From the NCBI GenBank assembly GCA_027858795.1, contig JAQICF010000054.1, forward strand, positions 1-14,786: DNA of 14,786 nucleotides, read 5' to 3'. This document shows, in pieces, positions 1 through 14,504 of the stretch. This DNA is from Candidatus Delongbacteria bacterium. GTDB lineage: Bacteria > Delongbacteria > UBA4055. The position numbers and the translations under genes were made by a program. The stretch's first letter is position 1. Each line of letters begins with the position of its first letter. The notes under the pieces are model-generated. The model was not told the origin of the DNA and made no database searches. It worked only from the letters and a program-made list of their open reading frames with translations.

Positions 1-480
1 AAGGAAAACCTTGTCAATTGGCTCTTCGTGGTAATCATCTTTGATCTCAGTTTTAGGAATTCTTAGAGTCTTTGTAAATTCGATAATCTTTTCATAATTT
101 TCTTTAAATTCTTTATAATCTGCAAGATACAACGCAAAAAGGTTTGATTCACCCATTTTCTTTAGCAATAAAGATGTATATGGCTCTTTTAGTTTAACCG
201 GTAGTTCCAGAGGCGATAGATATTCTTTGAATTTATTAATATCCAAAAAATCATAATATGATAAATCTTGATTCAATGGAAACAAATCCGGGAATTCTTT
301 TTGAATAAAACAAATCGTAAAGTATTTATTATTATGAACAACTAATTTTAATAAAACATCAATTATTTCTTGGGCAATATACTTACTTTCAAATAAATTC
401 TTTAATTCATCTAAATTTCTCGAATCCGTATAATACTCTATAAAATTCTTGTATGTACTAGATTTTAATTCAGAATACAA
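1..480 (-). CDS. Partial protein, tandem paralogue of the upstream 673-residue membrane protein (C-terminus outside window)
   Basis: The minus-strand frame is open from a TTG at 480-478 to the window edge (160 codons, no stop). An AGGAG lies at 494-490, nine bases before the TTG, and the first in-frame ATG comes only at residue 109, so TTG is the likely start. No known family is recognised. The translation aligns almost without gaps to the N-terminus of the next gene upstream: YYTDSRNLDELKNL (16-29) matches YYSDIKNIDELKDL (15-28), HNN (49-51) matches HNN (48-50), PDLF (64-67) matches PNLF (63-66), and ALYLA (116-120) matches ALYLA (118-122). This near-identical numbering also supports the chosen start. 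The gene begins 16 bases after the upstream stop and is probably last or near last in the Hsp70/DUF2971 operon. Whether it has the membrane segments of its paralogue cannot be seen. Function unknown. Confidence 0.82.
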   Translation of the reverse strand, partial: MYSELKSSTYKNFIEYYTDSRNLDELKNLFESKYIAQEIIDVLLKLVVHNNKYFTICFIQKEFPDLFPLNQDLSYYDFLDINKFKEYLSPLELPVKLKEPYTSLLLKKMGESNLFALYLADYKEFKENYEKIIEFTKTLRIPKTEIKDDYHEEPIDKVFL

Positions 481-489
481 ATATGAATT

Positions 490-494
490 CTCCT
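490..494 (-). promoter_or_regulatory. Shine-Dalgarno AGGAG fixing a TTG start
   Basis: On the minus strand AGGAG is followed by a nine-base spacer and TTG at 480-478. The same frame has a TAA at 507-505 just upstream, and no ATG or GTG lies between that stop and the TTG, so this site decides the start of the partial paralogue gene. Confidence 0.7.
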
Positions 495-496
495 TG

Positions 497-2518
497 TTAT
501 TCCTTTATTTCGATATCTTTACTGTTTGGTTTACTTTCTTTGGAAACTTCAATAGTTTTACTTTCTTTTCCAAGTTTATTTATTAAGTTATTAATTTTAT
601 TCAATAAAAAGGGATTCATAGTATTTAGATTTAAGTTTTTAATAGTGTAAAGCTTAATAAGTGCTTTTTCTTTGTCATTATAATAAAAATTGTTTAAAGT
701 AGTTAAAATAAATATTCTAAATGTTTGATTTAGTTTTTTTATGTCTCTTAGTATAAATTCAATTGCAAACAATGATTCTTCGATAACTATATTTTCGTTT
801 AATAAAACTTTATCGCATTTATCTGAATTTAATAATTCCAACAAAAACTCATCAGAAAGCCTAATCTTTTTTGAATTACTTGTATCTAGTATGTAATTAT
901 TCAATTCTTCTTTTTCAATTGATAAACAAAATTTAATCATTCTTTCGAAAGTTTCTTTATTTAGCTTATCTTTCAATTCATCGATTGATAAATTTTCCAA
1001 AGCTCCCAAGACATAAGAGAAATCAACAAGATTTTCTATCTTCTTTTTTATTTCTACATTGATCTTCACAATTTGATCTGCATCAGAAGTGTTATTGATT
1101 TGTTTTGATGATTCTTTTTTTATGGCTTCTACTTCTTTGGAAATGTTTATAACAAATTCTTTTAATGCCAAGCTGTTAATAGTAGCTCTCTTTTTTTTAT
1201 CAAATTTGACTCTCTCATAAATAATAGTAGGATTGTTATTTATGTCTATTACATACTTGTTTTTTACAAAATACTTTTTTAGCATACTATCTTTTATTAA
1301 TATATTAAGTACTCCTAAACTTTTACTTTTAGAGTTTTCATTAGAAAAATCAGTATGAATACATTTATATAATTCTACCTCATGTTTTTTAAATAATTCA
1401 TCAAAGATAGAAATAACAACCATAATTCCAAAAACCAAACCCATCATCAATAAAAAAATCAATAATAAAACTATACCTAAAAGGGTCAGGATAGGATTAT
1501 TTAATTCTTTGAAGTCTCCTTTTGCTATACTATTTACAATTATAACAACAAAATACAAGGTTGGGAATCCCAGTATTAAACCCACAAAAGCATCTTTCCA
1601 TTTAACATATGCAATAGTTATTTTAGTACGATGAAAATATCTTTTTTTTATAATTTTTTCATCTTCATTATAAATATGAATTTGTTTATTTGTGGCAAAA
1701 ACAATTGAATTCTTTTCAACTATCATTTTATCATAATAATAGTCCTGTACTTTGAAATTATTGATATTAAAAATTGAAATATTCTTTGATTCTATGTTGA
1801 ATTTGTACAACCATCTTCCTAAAATATCATATTTCCCATTAATTTGTTTAACTTCTTTTAAGGTAAAAAAATCTTGTGCAATGACCTTAGTATTGACTTC
1901 AACTTCTTGCAGCTTAAGTAACTTTAAATAATTTAATACTTCTTTTAATTTATCAAAATTCCCAGTTGATAATATTTTGCCTATTTCTCTTTTTTCTTTC
2001 TCTAAGAATGATTGAATTTTCTTCTTTTTAGTTACACCTTTTTTCTTTTGTAAATAATTGTATTTAATATTTTGAATGGTAGCACTTTCATTTTTAACTA
2101 TATCACATTCTTTCCTCGTTTTTTCAAAAAATTTCTCATACTTCGCTGAATTAGCTAAATACAAAGCTAAAATAATATTTTTATCAAATTTCTGATCTCG
2201 TAAATATTCAATTGATAAAAATTCTTCTACATTAAGTGTTTTTGTTAATGATTTTAGATATTTAGAATCAAATCCGTATTCGTCTATAAATGAGAAAGAT
2301 GAAATATCAATATCATCTTCAAATAAATTTGGCAAATATTTATATATAAAGTACTCTGTAAAAATTTCATTATTGTGTATTAGAAAGTCAATTATATCTT
2401 TCTTTAGATCGACTTCAAAATAATTGCTTTTACATAAATCTTTGAGTTCATCAATATTCTTTATATCGGAATAATAATTTGCTATATCATTGTATATTTC
2501 ATTTGCACGTTTTATCAT
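497..2518 (-). CDS. Unknown 673-residue membrane protein, first of two tandem paralogues
   Basis: No family is recognised. Residues 1-140 are helical and share a collinear homologous region with the gene immediately downstream. Residues 155-180 are strongly basic and probably coiled. Residues 205-295 look beta-rich (alternating hydrophobic and aromatic residues, with IHIYNEDEKIIKKRYF near 280-295). Two hydrophobic segments, about 310-331 and 343-372, should span the membrane as a hairpin, leaving both long ends on the same side, probably the cytoplasm. Residues 380-673 are charged and helical and end in a Lys/Glu/Ser-rich tail. An in-frame TAG just upstream fixes the ATG at 2518. It lies five bases after the DUF2971 stop without a clear Shine-Dalgarno sequence, which suggests translational coupling. 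The gene is very A/T-rich: one sampled 60-base line (1321-1380) holds 12 G/C. A role as a membrane partner of the neighbouring Hsp70 and DUF2971 proteins is inference from operon structure only. Confidence 0.85.
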   Translation of the reverse strand: MIKRANEIYNDIANYYSDIKNIDELKDLCKSNYFEVDLKKDIIDFLIHNNEIFTEYFIYKYLPNLFEDDIDISSFSFIDEYGFDSKYLKSLTKTLNVEEFLSIEYLRDQKFDKNIILALYLANSAKYEKFFEKTRKECDIVKNESATIQNIKYNYLQKKKGVTKKKKIQSFLEKEKREIGKILSTGNFDKLKEVLNYLKLLKLQEVEVNTKVIAQDFFTLKEVKQINGKYDILGRWLYKFNIESKNISIFNINNFKVQDYYYDKMIVEKNSIVFATNKQIHIYNEDEKIIKKRYFHRTKITIAYVKWKDAFVGLILGFPTLYFVVIIVNSIAKGDFKELNNPILTLLGIVLLLIFLLMMGLVFGIMVVISIFDELFKKHEVELYKCIHTDFSNENSKSKSLGVLNILIKDSMLKKYFVKNKYVIDINNNPTIIYERVKFDKKKRATINSLALKEFVINISKEVEAIKKESSKQINNTSDADQIVKINVEIKKKIENLVDFSYVLGALENLSIDELKDKLNKETFERMIKFCLSIEKEELNNYILDTSNSKKIRLSDEFLLELLNSDKCDKVLLNENIVIEESLFAIEFILRDIKKLNQTFRIFILTTLNNFYYNDKEKALIKLYTIKNLNLNTMNPFLLNKINNLINKLGKESKTIEVSKESKPNSKDIEIKE

Positions 2519-2523
2519 ATTAA

Positions 2524-3354
2524 TTATCTAATATTAATTTCACTTCTTAATATCGTATATTTTGAATCAGGTATATATTTACTACACAAAATCTCGATGA
2601 TATCATATGTTGCATCAGTAGCTTTGGGTCCCAATAGTATTTGTATGTCTTTGAAAGCATCTGGTCTAATATCAAGGAATAATTCATCTTCTTTAAATCT
2701 TAAATTTTTATATTTGTCACTTGATTTCAATTCTTCATCAAGTAGCTCACTTAGTGCCAATCGGTATCTCCATTCTTCTTCAAATTGCCAATGGAGATTT
2801 TTCTTTAAACCAACAATACTTATTTTAACCATATCCCCAACCATTTGATCGATATTGAAATTCTTTGATCCTGGCATATTAATTACTGTGGAGCAAATTC
2901 TTTCACTATTGTTTTTCGTATAACTAACTGGATAAGGACCAAACATATCTTCAATATATATTTTTCTTTCATTATTACCATTAATCGAAGTTATTTCAAT
3001 TTTCTGTTCAAGCTTCGATTTAAAACATTTATAATATTTATTAATAAAATAAGTATCATTAGTTTTAAATAAATTATATTGTAATCTAAAACGCAATCCT
3101 TTTAATTCTGTATATAATTTCCACATTGGTAACGATTCTTCAGAAGTAGCTGTCCATGACGAACAATAAACTAATTCTTGAGAATTTTTATAATCTTGAG
3201 AAATCCCATCAACAGGATCATTCATTAATGATAATTTGCGAAATTTGATAGTTTTATTCTTTAAAATTTGAGAAAAAGCCTCTATACTAGTATAATGATA
3301 CAGATATTTAGGAATATCTTCCTTTTTCAATAATATTTTTTCGTCGTGTTGCAT
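2524..3354 (-). CDS. DUF2971 family protein
   Basis: This 276-residue protein fits the DUF2971 family. It opens with LYHYTS (18-23), followed by the MNDPVDG block (44-50), where the family has a conserved Asn-Asp-Pro. A CSSWTATSEESLPMW stretch (64-78) matches the usual conserved Cys/Ser/Trp block. WQFEEEWR (189-196) corresponds to the family Glu-Glu-x-Arg motif, and IQILLGPKA (237-245) to the C-terminal Gly-Pro-Lys block. The biochemical function of DUF2971 is not established; members are common in accessory and defence-type neighbourhoods, and a link to ADP-ribosyltransferase-like folds has been suggested. No signal peptide or membrane segment is visible, so it is probably cytoplasmic. The ATG at 3354 follows GAGGTG at 3370-3365 by ten bases. 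That Shine-Dalgarno sequence lies between the gene and the Hsp70 stop at 3380, so the two are almost certainly co-transcribed. The family call is firm; the function is open. Confidence 0.85.
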   Translation of the reverse strand: MQHDEKILLKKEDIPKYLYHYTSIEAFSQILKNKTIKFRKLSLMNDPVDGISQDYKNSQELVYCSSWTATSEESLPMWKLYTELKGLRFRLQYNLFKTNDTYFINKYYKCFKSKLEQKIEITSINGNNERKIYIEDMFGPYPVSYTKNNSERICSTVINMPGSKNFNIDQMVGDMVKISIVGLKKNLHWQFEEEWRYRLALSELLDEELKSSDKYKNLRFKEDELFLDIRPDAFKDIQILLGPKATDATYDIIEILCSKYIPDSKYTILRSEINIR

Positions 3355-3379
3355 TTTACTTTTTCACCTCAATTTCTTC

Positions 3380-4933
3380 TTACTTCAATCTAGCAACTTC
3401 AAATTTATTAAAATATTCCTTTCCAGTCTTAAGATCAACCGCATCAACCATTAAAATTCTATTCTCATTCACATGAAAATCTAATTTCACCCTATCTTCT
3501 GATTTTACCGAAGGTGGATTAAGACTTATAAAACAATCTTGGGTTGTATTTAAAGGTACAATTTTCCTTGAAGCATCTTCTGAGCTACGATCTTTGATTA
3601 CAATAATATTTCCATTATCATCATAGGTTATATCTGATACCAGCTCTTCTGAATAAATGTTTTCCATCACTTCGAAAAATTTATATTCCATTTCAGTCTG
3701 ACCACTATATGGAGCTGCCACAACTAATTGTTTTATATTATTTGCAGGAAATTTTGTTTTTTGAGGAACTATAACTTCATACTCATAAATACCTCTATCC
3801 TTATTAAAATGTCTTAAGCTGTAGTTGTGATGCAGAAAATCTTCTACAATTGTTCCTGATATAAAATTGCAAGCACCCTTTATCACTGCGACAAAAGGTT
3901 CTTTTGCTTCTATCTTTGAACCAAAATTATTACGCATTATCTCAATAAATGATTTAAGTTGTGAGCTTCCACCAACTAAGAATACTTTTTTTATATCACT
4001 TTTTCTTATTCCATTCATTACTGCCAGTTCAGAAGCATTATCAATTGTATCCTGAATTTGTTGCGTAAAGAGATTTCTTTTTAATATTATTTCTAATTCT
4101 TTTTCATCTAAACAATAATCCATACAATAATCATTTTCTTTGTCCTCTATCTCGAAGCTTCCATGACCATTTTCGTTTACATCAATCTTTATTTTTTCCA
4201 ATTTCTGATATAATTCGGTTTTATAATTTTTAATATCTTCAACATTGAGATCCTGTTTTTCTAAAAAATCGAATAATAACCATTTATCAATATCTGCCCC
4301 ACCGAGATCTTTTCCTGCTTTACCGAATATATGAACTTTATTAGCATTTTTTGCATTATTTACTCTTAGAATATTTATATCAAGTGTTCCTCCACCAAAA
4401 TCAGCGATCATATAAGGATAGTCTGGAGATATTACTGCACCGTAACCAAGAGCAACAGCTGTAGGCTCATCCAATATCATGTAATTATATATACCTTTTG
4501 TTTCGCATAATTCTGAAAGAAAGATTCTATATACATCAAAACTATCAACAGGAGCAGTTATGATAATTTTATTTATCTCATCATTTGAATACTTTGTAAT
4601 CACAAAATCAATTACTAAACTCAAGAAATCCCTAGCAGCTTCTTTGTGATTAACTTTAAAATCATCAATCTTAATATTTCTTGCTTTGAATTTTGTAAAA
4701 TATAGCTTAAATCTTTCGAATATATTCTTAGGATCAGTGTTGATTAGATCTACATTTGCACCAATGTTAAACTTATTTCTTGTTTCATAGCTTATAATTG
4801 AAGGAATAACCGAATATTCCCCCAGCTTCTTGGAGATATCCGAAAAAGATTCAACTTTAACTTCTTTTGTAGTTATATCATAAACTCCAATCAGAGTATT
4901 TGATGTTCCGAAATCAATTGCAATGTTATACAA
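3380..4933 (-). CDS. Lidless Hsp70-family ATPase
   Basis: This is an Hsp70/actin-fold ATPase of 517 residues if it starts at TTG 4933. Nucleotide-binding motifs are intact: phosphate-1 DFGTSNT (7-13), the connecting stretch LDEPTAVALGYG (154-165), phosphate-2 DFGGGTLD (178-185), GKDLGGADID (207-216) and adenosine motif VFLVGGSSQ (317-325). After about residue 360 a beta-type substrate-binding domain follows; its end, LDFHVNENRILMVDA, matches the canonical beta-domain stretch that reads VTFDIDANGIL in DnaK. The chain stops there, without the roughly 100-residue helical lid and EEVD-like tail of a 630-640-residue DnaK. No DnaJ or GrpE gene is nearby. A GTG at 4957 would add eight residues, but TTG at 4933 has a better AGGAG at 7 bases and puts the phosphate-1 motif at the usual distance from the N-terminus. 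It is the first gene of the operon with DUF2971 and the tandem membrane-protein paralogues, and probably serves a dedicated client. Confidence 0.9.
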   Translation of the reverse strand: MYNIAIDFGTSNTLIGVYDITTKEVKVESFSDISKKLGEYSVIPSIISYETRNKFNIGANVDLINTDPKNIFERFKLYFTKFKARNIKIDDFKVNHKEAARDFLSLVIDFVITKYSNDEINKIIITAPVDSFDVYRIFLSELCETKGIYNYMILDEPTAVALGYGAVISPDYPYMIADFGGGTLDINILRVNNAKNANKVHIFGKAGKDLGGADIDKWLLFDFLEKQDLNVEDIKNYKTELYQKLEKIKIDVNENGHGSFEIEDKENDYCMDYCLDEKELEIILKRNLFTQQIQDTIDNASELAVMNGIRKSDIKKVFLVGGSSQLKSFIEIMRNNFGSKIEAKEPFVAVIKGACNFISGTIVEDFLHHNYSLRHFNKDRGIYEYEVIVPQKTKFPANNIKQLVVAAPYSGQTEMEYKFFEVMENIYSEELVSDITYDDNGNIIVIKDRSSEDASRKIVPLNTTQDCFISLNPPSVKSEDRVKLDFHVNENRILMVDAVDLKTGKEYFNKFEVARLK

Positions 4934-4940
4934 AGCAAAA

Positions 4941-4945
4941 CTCCT
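4941..4945 (-). promoter_or_regulatory. Shine-Dalgarno AGGAG favouring a TTG start for the Hsp70 gene
   Basis: AGGAG on the minus strand sits seven bases before TTG at 4933-4931. The competing GTG at 4957 would place this AGGAG inside the coding region and has no comparable ribosome-binding site of its own. The AT-rich context (AAAAGGAG) is typical of a strong site. Confidence 0.7.
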
Positions 4946-4984
4946 TTTAATTTTCACTCGTTTTATGGATTCAATGATATAGAT

Positions 4985-5013
4985 ATAATAAATATTTTAT
5001 GGTAAAGTAGCAA
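4985..5013 (-). promoter_or_regulatory. Candidate sigma70-like promoter of the Hsp70/DUF2971 operon
   Basis: Read on the minus strand, TTGCTA (5013-5008) and TATTAT (4990-4985) are separated by exactly 17 bases. They match four of six and five of six consensus positions. The -35 begins directly after the aminotransferase stop codon, so the accessory operon seems to have its own promoter rather than depending on read-through. The leader to TTG 4933 would be about 45 bases. It is a pattern match in AT-rich DNA, so chance is possible. Confidence 0.5.
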
Positions 5014-6120
5014 TTAAATTATGAATTCCTTAATCCTTTTCCCTGCTTCGATTATCTCAACTTCCGGTCTGGCGATATTAAACCTAACATATTTAGATCC
5101 ACTATCTGAGAAATGTATTCCCGGAACTGTAGCAACTTTCTTCTTATCGTAAAGATCCATAGAGAACTTTAGTCCGTCATCAAATTTTTCAGGTAATTTT
5201 GCCCAGATGAAATACCCTCCATCAATATGTGGAAAAGTAAAACCACATTCTGACAAGATATCATGTAATAGAAGAAAAGAATTCTTTATTTTTTTTCTTA
5301 GATCAAAAACATAAGCGTTACCAAAATCACTTTTTTCAAGATAAATAGCTACAGCTTCCTGCAATATAGATGGAGCACATAAACCTGTATAATCGTGAAT
5401 TAATCTAATCTTTTCCATATGTTCTTTCGAACAAAAATAGTAACCTATTCTCCAACCAGTGATAGACAATAGTTTTGAAAAACTGTTTACATAGAAAAAA
5501 CATTCACTATGAAAAACAGGCATAAAAGGTGGTTTTGAAAAATAAAGTTCACTGTAAACTGAATCAGCTATAACATAAATACTATACTTCTCAGCAATTT
5601 CTTTCAATTTTAAAATTTCTTCTTCTGACCAAATTGTTCCTAAGGGATTTCCCGGAGAATTAAAGAAGATAATACCAACATTCTCTTCCTGAACAAACTT
5701 TTCAAATATATTAAAATTTATTTTCCCGTTTTCTAATAGTGGGAAGACTTTGAACTCTCTATCAAATATACCTGGAAGTCTGCTATAACTTTCATAGACA
5801 GGATCAAACCCTAACGCAGTTTTACTTTTGTCCATAATTCCATTCAGGTATGTAAAGATCAGGGATATAGCTTCTGTTGCTCCATTGGTAACCATTATGT
5901 TATCTTCCGTGAAACCTTCGTACTTCTTCTTCAATAGATTTATAAGCTTAAGATTTCCATTTCCCGGAGCATATTGATGGATATTTTCTATCGCAATATC
6001 TTTGAGAATTTCAAGCAATTCTTTAGGTGGAGAGAACCCAGGTATTCCTTGGGCTAGATTTATACCTCCATGCTTTTTTACTTTATTGCTCATCAGGCTA
6101 ATGTATGATATCTTTTCCAT
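5014..6120 (-). CDS. Class I/II PLP-dependent aminotransferase
   Basis: This is a fold-type I PLP aminotransferase of 368 residues, slightly short for the group (usually 380-410). Visible signatures are NLAQGIPGF (21-29) near the N-terminus, the substrate/cofactor loop YAPGNGN (50-56), NSPGNPLGT (154-162) with the cofactor-contacting Asn158, D186 and Y189 in ADSVY, the Schiff-base lysine K216 in SFSKLLSITGWRIGYY, and R351 in FNIARPE for the substrate alpha-carboxylate. All catalytic residues are present, so it should be active and cytoplasmic. The NLAQG opening resembles the methionine/kynurenine/aspartate aminotransferase subgroup, but the amino-acid donor cannot be assigned from sequence alone. 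The ATG at 6120 has only a weak AAAGAG upstream. The gene is divergent from holB and lies just upstream of the Hsp70 operon on the same strand; there is no clear metabolic link to either neighbour. Confidence 0.9.
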   Translation of the reverse strand: MEKISYISLMSNKVKKHGGINLAQGIPGFSPPKELLEILKDIAIENIHQYAPGNGNLKLINLLKKKYEGFTEDNIMVTNGATEAISLIFTYLNGIMDKSKTALGFDPVYESYSRLPGIFDREFKVFPLLENGKINFNIFEKFVQEENVGIIFFNSPGNPLGTIWSEEEILKLKEIAEKYSIYVIADSVYSELYFSKPPFMPVFHSECFFYVNSFSKLLSITGWRIGYYFCSKEHMEKIRLIHDYTGLCAPSILQEAVAIYLEKSDFGNAYVFDLRKKIKNSFLLLHDILSECGFTFPHIDGGYFIWAKLPEKFDDGLKFSMDLYDKKKVATVPGIHFSDSGSKYVRFNIARPEVEIIEAGKRIKEFII

Positions 6121-6149
6121 AAGTTACGCTCTTTACTTTTCTTTTTAGC

Positions 6150-6178
6150 AAAATAATAAACTAATATTGATAATTCAA
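6150..6178 (-). promoter_or_regulatory. Possible promoter of the aminotransferase gene
   Basis: On the minus strand TTGAAT (6178-6173) is followed 17 bases later by TATTTT (6155-6150). Each box matches four of six consensus positions, so the call is modest. The 12-base tandem repeats start eight bases upstream of the -35, where an activator or repressor would act. Confidence 0.35.
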
Positions 6179-6186
6179 GGAATTAC

Positions 6187-6246
6187 TTGTATCATTTATT
6201 GTATCATTTATTGCATCTTTTGTTGTATCTTTTATGATATCTTTTT
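6187..6246. repeat. Five tandem copies of a 12-base unit in a divergent promoter region
   Basis: Read on the plus strand, the units are 6187-6198 and 6199-6210 (both TTGTATCATTTA), 6211-6222 (TTGCATCTTTTG), 6223-6234 (TTGTATCTTTTA) and 6235-6246 (TGATATCTTTTT). The first two are identical and the rest drift, with consensus TTGTATCWTTTA. The array lies between the aminotransferase and holB, just upstream of the candidate aminotransferase promoter and about 65 bases from the holB -10. It may be a multi-site protein-binding array, a slippage-prone spacer, or neutral simple repeat. No reading frame through it has a credible start. Confidence 0.85.
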
Positions 6247-6282
6247 AGCTTTACTATTATTAAATTATGGACTATATTCTAA

Positions 6283-6308
6283 ACTTTGTAAAACTATGTT
6301 AACAAAGT
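6283..6308. repeat. Inverted repeat in front of holB, possible operator
   Basis: ACTTTGT (6283-6289) and its exact reverse complement ACAAAGT (6302-6308) flank a 12-base spacer. The centres of the arms are 19 bases apart, close to two helical turns. The right arm ends four bases before the holB -10 hexamer, so a dimeric regulator bound here would cover the -35 position. A U-tract is lacking, so it is not an intrinsic terminator. Confidence 0.45.
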
Positions 6309-6312
6309 ACAG

Positions 6313-6318
6313 TATAAT
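6313..6318 (+). promoter_or_regulatory. Consensus -10 (TATAAT) immediately upstream of holB
   Basis: A perfect TATAAT ends six bases before the holB ATG at 6325. Transcription normally starts about seven bases after the -10, which here is the A of the ATG, implying a leaderless mRNA. No Shine-Dalgarno sequence is visible in the bases before the ATG. The 16-18-base -35 position (around 6289-6296) has no TTGACA-like match, so an activator may be required, or the hexamer is a chance match in AT-rich DNA. Confidence 0.45.
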
Positions 6319-6324
6319 AGCTTA

Positions 6325-7407
6325 ATGAACATATTTAAAGACATATTTGGGCAAAAAATAATAACTGAGAATTTTTCGTCAGCTATTTTGAATAATAAAC
6401 TTCACCATGCTTATCTTTTCAATGGTCCTGCGGGTGTTGGAAAAGAAGCTGTTGCTTTGGAAATTATTAAGATAACCAATTGCTTAGATGATTCTGAACA
6501 GGGAGCTTGCGGAATTTGTTCTTCATGTAAAGAATTCGGTGAGTTCAGATCAGATGATCTAATGTATATTTTTCCTAAGATAATAAAAAAAAGTGATGGT
6601 GACAAAGCTATCAGAGAAAAAAATAAGGATGTCGCAGATGGTCTGAAAGAAAAAGGGAAAATGAACGGATATTCCAAATTCACATTCAAACTTGGAAGAT
6701 TTATCACTTTAGATCAGATTAATGAGATAAAATACTTCTCTCAATTTAATTCTCTATCTAAGTATAAAAAATTTATTATAATATCTTCACCCGAGAAAAT
6801 GAATAAGGAAGCTCAGAATGCTCTGCTGAAAATATTGGAAGAGCCACCTGCGAATATGTATTTTTTCTTGATCTCTGAAAACCCAGCTTTTTTGTTAGAC
6901 ACAATTATCTCTAGATGTCAGAATGTTACTTTTCCAGCTCTGAATGAAAAAGATATTTTAAGTTACTGTGAAACATACTTGCAAGATGTTGATACAGAAT
7001 TGATACAAGATGCTGCATCAAGATCTCTCGGTTCAATAGACAAACTAAAAATGCTTGTTACTAAACAAGGCAATCAGTTAATGACTATTCAAAATGAAAT
7101 AGTTAGATTGTTCCTCAATTCAACACCTCCTGAATCCTTATCAATGATCGATACATTTGTGGAAGAATCTAAGTCACTTTCCGATGATGATATTGAATTC
7201 GTACTTAATGGAGCAGTTGAGAAACTAATACAAAATACTTTCAAAAATGAGAAAAAATCGTCTATTTATCATATCGAAAAGATCTTAACTCATTTTCAAA
7301 GATTCGGCTATATGTTCAAAAGAAACATTAACCCCAAATTATTAATGATAAACCTATATTTTAACTACAGGGAAGAATTAAAGAAATGGAAAAAAAATCA
7401 AACATAG
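6325..7407 (+). CDS. holB: DNA polymerase III delta-prime subunit
   Basis: Delta prime is the stator of the DnaX clamp-loader complex that opens the sliding clamp on DNA. This 360-residue protein has the AAA+ layout of the family. It starts with FGQKIITENFSSAI and HHAYLFNG (27-34), then a Walker A-like GPAGVGKE (34-41) in which the usual Thr/Ser is replaced by Glu. The four-cysteine zinc module follows (C53, C62, C65, C68), then NKEAQNALLKILEEPP (160-175) and the SRC sensor (S196-R197-C198). The Walker B region reads IIISSPEKM and lacks the acidic pair. Together with the altered Walker A this predicts no ATP hydrolysis, as known for delta prime, while the SRC arginine finger that acts on the neighbouring subunit is kept. 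A basic insertion of about 40 residues (85-125) separates the zinc module from ITLDQI. The ORF overlaps ricT by 22 bases; holB next to ricT is a widespread arrangement. Confidence 0.92.
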   Translation: MNIFKDIFGQKIITENFSSAILNNKLHHAYLFNGPAGVGKEAVALEIIKITNCLDDSEQGACGICSSCKEFGEFRSDDLMYIFPKIIKKSDGDKAIREKNKDVADGLKEKGKMNGYSKFTFKLGRFITLDQINEIKYFSQFNSLSKYKKFIIISSPEKMNKEAQNALLKILEEPPANMYFFLISENPAFLLDTIISRCQNVTFPALNEKDILSYCETYLQDVDTELIQDAASRSLGSIDKLKMLVTKQGNQLMTIQNEIVRLFLNSTPPESLSMIDTFVEESKSLSDDDIEFVLNGAVEKLIQNTFKNEKKSSIYHIEKILTHFQRFGYMFKRNINPKLLMINLYFNYREELKKWKKNQT

Positions 7408-8495: not shown

Positions 8496-10043
8496 GTGTC
8501 AAAAAATTCAGAAACACAAAAATATTCGGTTAGAACTAACACCCAGGATAAAATAGAAGGTTTTCTGAAATCAAACCGTATTATTTATGGTGAATTGATG
8601 AATACTGTCATTTATTATGAGAGTAATACATTGCTTCCTAAAACTGGGATTCTTGTTCTAGAAGATGATGAGCTAGTATTTTATGGTTCAAAATCTATCC
8701 TCGAGAAAGAATATTTTTTAAAATTCAACTACGTAAACTTATATCTTTCTAAGAATACCGGATTTACAATCAACTTTGTAAATAGAGAACTCGAACAAAA
8801 AAAAGACAAATGCAAGTTCAGTATAGCCTGGGAAGACTATATTACGAAAAATATAAAACCTGATTTTGTATATAGATTAAGCATAAAAATCAAAGATAAA
8901 TTGATCCGAAAATCGACACAATTATTAAAAAATCAAGACACATCTAATGAAGCGTATGTTTATTATCACAGAATACTGAATGAAAAGATATATGATATTA
9001 ATTTTCTGATTGAATTTATGAAACTTATCCACATTGAGGCGGAAGCAGAATCAGAAGGAATTAATGATCTTTATGTGAAATATATTGAAAAGAAAAAAAA
9101 GTTTCTCATCAAAATATATCCATCACATCAAGATACTATTGAAAAACATTTAAACTTAGAAGGCTATGAAGAGCAAGAGATTCAAAGATCTGAAATTCTA
9201 ACGAATTTTACAGTTGATGAAGAAACACTAAAATCCAGTAATGAGACAGATAAAGTTGAAAACCTATTAAAAATACCAGGTATTCAAAAATTGATAGATG
9301 ATAAGATCGAAGAAAAAGTTGAAAACACAAAACAACAACTTTTGAAAGATTATTACGAAAAGGTTGATGCTTATTCATCTAGATTATCAATCGAAAAAGA
9401 GATCTATCGTGAAATAATAAAAGATAATGTAACTCTGTTAAAACAAATTGATCTAAAAAAAGTTGATCCTGATAAGGTGATTGACAGTATCATGGATTTC
9501 TATTTTAGATATAAAATTATAAACGATCAAATACCAAATTCTTTCACAATTGATCGGAAAAGACCTGATCCTGGTAAAAACAGATTACTACACATTCTTG
9601 AAGATCTGTCGGTGGATTATTTGAAGATTGTCGATCCATACTTCTTCCCAAGTGAACTTGAATTATTAAATGATCTTCCAAACGATATTGAGATCAAGAT
9701 CATTACTTATGCAGTAACACAAAAGAGTTTTGCAGATAAACTGAAATTATTCAAAGCAAAACTTAAAGATATCAGAAAAATAAGAATGGCAGATATCTCG
9801 GTCAAATTAATTAAGTTTCAGAATAGAGATCAAACTCCGTTGCACGACAGAGCTATTTTTTCAAAGGATTGGGGACTTAGTTTATCTAATTCATTATCTC
9901 AGATAGGATTGAATCATGATGTTATAGTTAGAAGAGTATTTAATACAGAACGAGAAGTAATTGATTTCGATGATTTCTGGTATATTGTAAATGAAATGAA
10001 AAGAGGCGGGAAGACTCTTAAAATAAAAGTAATCGATTTGTAG
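8496..10043 (+). CDS. Unrecognised 515-residue protein with C-terminal phospholipase D-like domain
   Basis: The start is GTG at 8496, five bases after GAGG at 8487-8490. Residues 35-130 look beta-rich, with short alternating strands (GILVLEDDELVFYG), and could be a PH/GRAM-like module; this is only a guess. Residues 255-345 are charged, helical and probably coiled-coil. The C-terminal part from about 370 resembles the phospholipase D superfamily: DYLKIVDPYFFPSE places D380-P-Y-F at the end of a strand, then an IEIKIIT strand follows. LHDRAIF with H450-D451-R452, followed by WGLSLSNSLSQIG, looks like a degenerate HxK motif with Arg in place of Lys, plus the usual Ser/Asn-containing turn. Only one such motif is present, so activity would need a dimer, or the domain is a non-catalytic binding fold. 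There is no signal peptide. It sits 21 bases after ricT, so it may be co-expressed with it. Function unknown. Confidence 0.75.
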   Translation: MSKNSETQKYSVRTNTQDKIEGFLKSNRIIYGELMNTVIYYESNTLLPKTGILVLEDDELVFYGSKSILEKEYFLKFNYVNLYLSKNTGFTINFVNRELEQKKDKCKFSIAWEDYITKNIKPDFVYRLSIKIKDKLIRKSTQLLKNQDTSNEAYVYYHRILNEKIYDINFLIEFMKLIHIEAEAESEGINDLYVKYIEKKKKFLIKIYPSHQDTIEKHLNLEGYEEQEIQRSEILTNFTVDEETLKSSNETDKVENLLKIPGIQKLIDDKIEEKVENTKQQLLKDYYEKVDAYSSRLSIEKEIYREIIKDNVTLLKQIDLKKVDPDKVIDSIMDFYFRYKIINDQIPNSFTIDRKRPDPGKNRLLHILEDLSVDYLKIVDPYFFPSELELLNDLPNDIEIKIITYAVTQKSFADKLKLFKAKLKDIRKIRMADISVKLIKFQNRDQTPLHDRAIFSKDWGLSLSNSLSQIGLNHDVIVRRVFNTEREVIDFDDFWYIVNEMKRGGKTLKIKVIDL

Positions 10044-13675: not shown

Positions 13676-13703
13676 ATCGTGTTTTTTGTTTAAGGCGAAA
13701 TTT

Positions 13704-14504
13704 ATGAAAAAAATTATAATTATAGGAATATTATTGGTAGTTATTGTTTTATTACTACTTTTGACTATATCTGATAATAAATCAAGTTTAAATAAAGTTA
13801 CATACGAGAATATTTTACATCAAGATACTTTAAATGTTAACAATATTAAATCAATTGAACAATTAGGGAAAAGTATTTTTTTTGAAGATTTCTCTTCTAA
13901 AAATATTTCTGACTGGAATATTGATTATCAAAATGCAACAAATTGGATCTACGAATTCACAGATAGTGATGGAATTATAATAAAACACATAATCAATGAA
14001 TCTTTTAGTAAGAATTTATACGGCCCTTGGGCTAATGTTATTATGAAAAAAACAATTCCAATTAAAGTCAGTATTATTTTCATATCTAAAATATCATGGG
14101 ATTCTTTTAATTCAATAACTGCAATGCAACATATTTATTTTTCTTTCTTAGATGCTGACGATAATGAGATGTTCTTTTTTGGATACAATGATCCATATAT
14201 TAGTTATCAAGGAGGAATTTTAACAAAATTTCATGATAAAGATTATTATTGGCATAAAAAAAGAGAACTGGATTTTAATGATAATTGTTTATTGAAGATG
14301 GTAAAAAAAGGTAAAAACATACAGCTTTATTATAATGATGAATTCATAGTTCAATCAACAGTAGAAAATGATATAAATAAAATCAATGTTGTTTGCGGGT
14401 ATTTTGCTTCGATAAATTATAAAGATTCAAATTTGAAATCTACCTTTGGTTTGCTTGGAATAGATTTTATCAATATTTCAACACACGATGATCTATTAAA
14501 TTAA
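13704..14504 (+). CDS. Unrecognised membrane-anchored extracytoplasmic protein, possible lectin-like fold
   Basis: The ATG at 13704 is preferred over the TTG at 13686 because AAGG (13692-13695) lies eight bases before it and because MKKIIIIGILL then begins directly with a signal-anchor segment (residues 4-22). No cysteine lipobox follows, so it is probably a membrane-anchored rather than a lipoprotein. The 266-residue product has a soluble outer part rich in aromatics and short beta strands, for example IFFEDFSSKNISDW (about 58-71), YGPWANV, HIYFSFLDADDNEMFFFGY and GKNIQLYYNDEFIV. An opening of the type phe-asp-phe with a later Trp, followed by a strand that ends in LYYND, recalls concanavalin A/LamG-like or DUF1080-type carbohydrate-binding domains. 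That fold is an inference; no family was identified. It lies between a glycosyltransferase and a polysaccharide deacetylase-like gene, which fits a cell-envelope glycan role. Confidence 0.72.
   Translation: MKKIIIIGILLVVIVLLLLLTISDNKSSLNKVTYENILHQDTLNVNNIKSIEQLGKSIFFEDFSSKNISDWNIDYQNATNWIYEFTDSDGIIIKHIINESFSKNLYGPWANVIMKKTIPIKVSIIFISKISWDSFNSITAMQHIYFSFLDADDNEMFFFGYNDPYISYQGGILTKFHDKDYYWHKKRELDFNDNCLLKMVKKGKNIQLYYNDEFIVQSTVENDINKINVVCGYFASINYKDSNLKSTFGLLGIDFINISTHDDLLN

Follow-up and report, generated by a model that had tools for sequence, protein, structure and literature searches.

A four-gene Delongbacteria operon encoding a lidless Hsp70, a predicted ADP-ribosyltransferase and two large orphan paralogues: a possible chaperone-gated effector

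Introduction

What could an Hsp70 ATPase be doing in a tight operon with a DUF2971 protein and two large paralogous proteins? The question is raised by one end of a 14,786-nucleotide stretch from Candidatus Delongbacteria bacterium (assembly GCA_027858795.1, contig JAQICF010000054.1), referred to here in its full length as the window. A preliminary description, made from the sequence alone, had proposed a candidate four-gene system that might act in stress sensing, defence or assembly of a membrane complex. The operon is real at this locus. The answer that we tentatively favour is that it encodes an ADP-ribosyltransferase gated by a chaperone, along the lines of CmdTAC but with Hsp70 in the chaperone's place.

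Organization of the operon

Four open frames lie on the minus strand, at 4957–3380, 3354–2524, 2518–497 and 480–<1. Their gaps of 25, 5 and 16 bases confirm the single strand and tight spacing noted at the outset. The features are as follows.

3380..4933, minus strand: gene 1, a lidless Hsp70-family ATPase of 517 residues (PF00012; DnaK match over the nucleotide-binding domain and the end of the β substrate-binding domain; start from relatives and AGGAG)
2524..3354, minus strand: gene 2, a DUF2971-like protein of 276 residues with a predicted ADP-ribosyltransferase fold and H20/Y81/E194 (PF11185 relatives, model, DarT and Tpt1 folds, motif counts)
497..2518, minus strand: gene 3, an orphan protein of 673 residues with a hairpin of two transmembrane helices (two relatives, P0124 and P0125; hydropathy; low-confidence model)
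1..480, minus strand: gene 4, a tandem paralogue of the 673-residue protein with a TTG start, cut at the window end, 160 residues seen (33% identity)
4985..5013, minus strand: promoter-like hexamers TTGCTA-17-TATTAT, not above chance (promoter scan)

Ribosome-binding sequences, read by eye, precede genes 1, 2 and 4, and AAGGAG stands before the TTG start of gene 4; none is obvious before gene 3. The open frame of the Hsp70 gene itself runs from a GTG at 4957, which had been taken as the start. Eleven of 24 aligned relatives, including the nearest seven, begin exactly at the residue of a TTG at 4933, the remaining 13 being 2–21 residues longer, and AGGAG precedes this codon. Thus the 517-residue product starting at 4933 is most likely the correct one.

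The dedicated promoter of the preliminary description fared no better than its start codon. The sequence TTGCTA-17-TATTAT (5013–4985) is a 9-of-12 match, no better than chance, and a scan of positions 1–6400 gave 52 promoter-like sites against 44.8 (standard deviation 6.1) in shuffled sequences, so that the proposed site is no evidence for a promoter. No terminator was found in the scan of the same positions (1.1 expected), nor any Rfam or tRNA feature in the window at default thresholds.

An Hsp70 with an altered linker and no lid

Gene 1 matches the Hsp70 family (PF00012) at E 4.2e-21. The profile used for comparison was built from 35 of 120 listed proteins and counts the query among them. 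The nearest full-length relative, P0005, is 75% identical and comes from a Ca. Delongbacteria genome; a nearer one, P0018, is a fragment of 303 residues and was dropped from profiles A1 and A4. Residues D15, G17, K84, E164, D186 and G188–190 are invariant in all 35 rows, leaving the ATPase signature intact; which of these residues are catalytic we take to be as in DnaK. No GrpE-like match was found in the window.

Against DnaK, the A1 profile aligns first with the ATPase domain and then with the final part of the β substrate-binding domain. The latter stretch alone is weak (independent E-value 0.07), but it is collinear with the nucleotide-binding domain. Since the protein stops after this β domain, the α-helical lid is absent, and the lidless Hsp70 seen in the preliminary description is indeed present.

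The linker of DnaK carries allosteric signals and those of J-proteins. At the position of its hydrophobic segment the present family has V-E-D-F-L-H-H-N-Y instead, in which D373, H377 and Y379 form a D-x-x-x-H-x-Y motif found in 35 of 35 rows. It is therefore unlikely that this Hsp70 is driven in the usual way.

The DUF2971 protein as a predicted ADP-ribosyltransferase

Gene 2 falls short of the DUF2971 profile on its own score (19.0 against a 22-bit cut-off for PF11185), so the earlier assignment stands by homology to members: P0126, P0127 and P0130 carry PF11185 and are 31–33% identical to the gene 2 protein over 91–97% of its length. The predicted model (pLDDT 82.8) finds its best, weak, fold matches in DarT and Tpt1. 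By sequence, an H-Y-E triad can be assigned in the right order to H20, Y81 and E194. The tyrosine and glutamate occur in all 53 rows of an alignment that leaves out two 472-residue frames (L103 and L104), and the histidine in 40 of them; within the clade of the window protein, P0002, 27 of 27 have all three residues. A sequence search of solved structures with the DUF2971 profile returned none at E 1. We regard the DUF2971 protein as a predicted member of the ADP-ribosyltransferase superfamily, on the model and on the order of the motif residues. In the literature searched, only a genome reannotation turned up for DUF2971, and the name 'PDC-S31' was not found.

The family is scattered among genomes and mobile elements. 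It occurs in 17 of 96 genomes of a Verrucomicrobia-type sample, and in 3 of 251 Chloroflexota-type and 37 of 194 cyanobacterial genomes, in both of which the hits are mainly short motif matches. In cyanobacterial genomes of about 2 Mb (L146–L174) the protein is mostly a frame of 305–319 residues that matches the N-terminal motif of gene 2. Seventeen plasmid records match P0002 at 24–41% identity, three of them covering at least 80% of the query, and there is one phage record. Members of the P0002 clade lie on five viral contigs (L083–L087), in L085 next to a tail gene and in L087 next to an integrase. If DUF2971 is a family with the ADP-ribosyltransferase fold, a plasmid- and virus-borne family gains a testable activity.

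The large paralogous proteins

Pfam and NCBIfam recognize no family in the products of genes 3 and 4, as had been stated, nor in P0124 and P0125. These two are the only relatives found for gene 3, which gives the family three known proteins with that of the window. The earlier picture of a tandem, paralogous, membrane-type pair holds for the paralogy (33% identity over 125 residues, E 2e-14) and in part for the membrane: a two-helix hairpin, with hydropathy peaks at 310 and 351, is seen only in the gene 3 protein and in both of its relatives, gene 4 being incomplete. The low-confidence model of gene 3 (pLDDT 45) has helical N- and C-terminal parts and a strand-rich middle. No member of the gene 3/4 family was found on viral contigs, and no plasmid record matched at E 0.01.

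A proposed chaperone-gated effector

Of the readings that give every one of the four genes a part, chaperone gating is the most economical, and it is the one we favour. It starts from the computed features, namely the operon layout, an Hsp70 that has the ATPase signature but neither a lid nor the normal linker, the H-Y-E triad, the weakly matching ADP-ribosyltransferase-like predicted fold, the paralogy and the gene 3 hairpin; from these we infer all physical interactions, the enzymatic activity, the trigger and the outcome. The lidless Hsp70 would bind its operon partners and, through an ATP-driven conformational change, would keep the DUF2971 protein silent, the latter being the putative effector of the ADP-ribosyltransferase superfamily. 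The two large paralogues, probably built of helical repeats and at least one of them membrane-anchored, may serve as a sensor or scaffold on which Hsp70 works. A trigger such as a phage product or membrane damage might occupy Hsp70 or the membrane proteins and so free the effector, which would modify a cell component and stop growth.

If the operon is one unit, an Hsp70 would be doing the job of the SecB-like chaperones in toxin–antitoxin–chaperone systems. A more specific version, in which the operon is an abortive-infection or stress switch, the relinked Hsp70 restraining the DUF2971 ADP-ribosyltransferase in a SecB-type role and the trigger being read from the membrane-anchored repeat pair, is in our judgment improbable. 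Were it true, DUF2971 would be a large unrecognized family of ADP-ribosyltransferase effectors and Hsp70 a toxin gatekeeper.

Recurrence of the gene set and the passenger alternative

The preliminary description proposed to test whether the four families are neighbours in distant genomes, and held that the grouping here would be accidental if the Hsp70 and DUF2971 genes never were. Among 175 fetched loci, 94 contain an Hsp70 gene (with as much as 8 kb per side in 80 cases) and 61 a DUF2971 gene (with at most about 1.5 kb per side in 56); none of the 94 and none of the 61 holds both. Seven distant viral Hsp70s are counted among the 94, and two places are counted twice (L002/L139 and L010/L082); the close relatives (38–75% identity) with their neighbours are not part of the set. 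In a search that had no positive control, none of 14 genomes with the Hsp70 family carried a DUF2971 of this type, and the full four-gene set was not found together elsewhere among the loci examined. These counts weigh against the chaperone-gated effector, in that they speak against a widespread Hsp70–DUF2971 two-gene module. The composition on which the first proposals were based is real here, and its recurrence was not found among these loci.

The Hsp70 relative P0005 and the gene 3 relative P0124 share both a longest contig of 348,134 and a Ca. Delongbacteria name. Apparently, Hsp70 and the orphan membrane family recur on one Delongbacteria contig, their spacing within it aside, and the case for an association of these two is therefore stronger than that for the complete four-gene system. 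No DUF2971 match has that contig value. This observation speaks for the main rival. In that reading Hsp70 would join the tandem membrane proteins in a machine for assembly or maintenance of a membrane complex, and DUF2971 would be a mobile passenger, a moron-like defence or toxin gene inserted between them. The five viral contigs on which the P0002 clade occurs without Hsp70, the 17 plasmid records and the 61 DUF2971 loci without Hsp70 also favour this reading, and in L002, L006 and L038 the Hsp70 relatives have two large paralogues as neighbours. Yet the DUF2971 gene lies inside the operon with gaps of 25 and 5 bases, which is tight for a recent insert, and the search that did not show it on the Delongbacteria contig was word-limited.

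A second coincidence also counts against the passenger. P0025, an Hsp70 of 41% identity, and P0132, a DUF2971 protein of 35%, both have a longest contig of 6,195. This is the single exact match among 700 pairs (25 close Hsp70s by 28 DUF2971 proteins), and there is none among 2632 pairs with the 94 distant Hsp70s; since 21 of the 700 pairs agree within 200 bases, about 0.05 exact matches would be expected by chance. P0132 is 87.5% identical to a protein of Clostridium chromiireducens, so a contig shared with P0025 is not an obvious fit, and the coincidence is a hint only. On balance we consider the passenger rather unlikely.

Flanking genes and a housekeeping alternative

Ahead of the Hsp70 gene lies an aminotransferase gene (6120–5014, minus strand), and the plus-strand genes that come next are holB, ricT, a gene for 515 residues, alaS and a glycosyltransferase gene. 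The 515-residue gene (8496–10043, plus strand) matched no Pfam family, and a gene at 13686–14504 (plus strand) gave a weak match to DUF3242 (E 0.003, below cut-off). The window is AT-rich.

Neighbours such as the aminotransferase, holB, ricT and alaS would suit a stress or housekeeping operon, in which a specialized Hsp70 serves membrane clients and the DUF2971 protein has the ADP-ribosyltransferase fold but either lacks transferase activity or plays a metabolic part. The broad DUF2971 relatives in which H20 is not universal are consistent with this, as are the 37 cyanobacterial genomes with motif matches, all of 1.8–2.2 Mb, as if the gene were a standing one. The complete triad throughout the P0002 clade argues the other way, as do membrane genes that are orphans, unlike housekeeping genes. 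The G+C content, 23–30% across the operon and 26–35% after it, points in the same direction, though as a gradual shift it is weak evidence. A housekeeping role seems to us distinctly unlikely, and the chaperone-gated effector is retained as the preferred reading.

The wider lidless Hsp70 family

The best 80 of 432 relatives on genome contigs (L001–L080) outline a family of lidless Hsp70s of about 530 residues, 26–31% identical over nearly the full length and mostly from Cyanobacteria and Chloroflexota by title; none of these 80 has a Delongbacteria title. In 21 of the 80 loci a GrpE-like gene is found no more than two open reading frames away on the same strand; the two that were tested match Pfam GrpE at E 0.001, short of the cut-off. 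Within 8 kb there are DUF1257 (15 loci), DUF2997 (17), AAA (14) and radical-SAM (4) genes. HEAT/WD40-type genes occur within two open reading frames on the same strand in 13, ten of which fall among the 18 loci chosen because their titles did not suggest typical cyanobacteria. The neighbour profiles were built from members in some of the counted loci (for HEAT/WD40, L001, L002, L006, L009 and L038), and for those loci a match is built in. Two HEAT/WD40 paralogues accompany the Hsp70 in L002, L006 and L038; homology of these neighbours to genes 3 and 4 was considered and is unsupported (probability 0.1%, E 0.56).

Six loci (L002, L006, L008, L009, L010 and L038) all have AAA, DUF1257 and HEAT/WD40 genes around Hsp70, with GrpE-like genes in four, DUF2997 in two and radical-SAM in two. 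At L044:2094-4808 a member of the family is fused to WD40 repeats, and at L022:8019-10790 another has a long extra C-terminal part.

The family is rare in sampled genomes: it occurs in 4 of 301 from L002's phylum, 2 of 247 from L010's and 2 of 57 relatives of the L010 genome, at E-value limits set per sample and with the centre genome included in each count. On viral contigs the A4 profile found the seven distant Hsp70s (22–24% identity), and a single-protein scan with P0001 found no Hsp70 relative. One plasmid record, cyanobacterial and 30% identical, matched at E 1e-20.

Comparison with known systems

No named system of this composition turned up in the literature searched, in keeping with the preliminary description, nor is it described in the excerpts of PMC11618068, PMC7159879 and PMC11090510 on which the following comparisons draw. 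In CmdTAC a capsid protein pulls a SecB-like chaperone away, the antitoxin is degraded and an ADP-ribosyltransferase is freed (PMC11618068). The likeness lies in an ADP-ribosyltransferase effector, predicted here, that is encoded with a chaperone and may be gated by it; the chaperone is SecB-like there and an Hsp70 ATPase here. No SecB family was found by Pfam and NCBIfam among the ten window proteins, the window ending inside gene 4. In place of a recognized antitoxin the window has a pair of large proteins, of which one carries a membrane hairpin.

DarTG and DarT1–NADAR are comparable through the DUF2971 model, for which they provide the nearest, though weakly matching, solved folds, and through an H-Y-E triad as in DarT2 (PMC11543638, in excerpt). 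They differ in that no antitoxin family is recognized among the four genes and that the sequence match is confined to the first motif.

Chaperones have been described as threshold setters in conflict systems, some GTPase-centred ones including Hsp70 and GrpE (PMC7159879), and type III CoCoNuTs have an Hsp70-like protein, CnuD, with Walker-A-like motifs described as degenerate (PMC11090510). A dedicated Hsp70 in a proposed conflict system is common to these and to the window, where, in contrast to CnuD, the ATPase residues are intact. Among the 11 open reading frames of the window, again ending inside gene 4, Pfam found no GTPase (McrB-type or TRAFAC), McrB/McrC, tubulin or HEPN family.

The GrpE-like, DUF1257, DUF2997, AAA and radical-SAM neighbours of the wider lidless Hsp70 family have no counterpart in the window. 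The Hsp70 itself aligns with that family over nearly its full length (26–31% identity), and the D-x-x-x-H-x-Y linker is present in the aligned sample as well. The window and the wider family thus share a theme, a lidless Hsp70 accompanied by two large proteins, the partner proteins being without detectable homology. Useful gains are the ADP-ribosyltransferase prediction for DUF2971 and the outline of a family of lidless, relinked Hsp70s whose neighbours include large repeat proteins.
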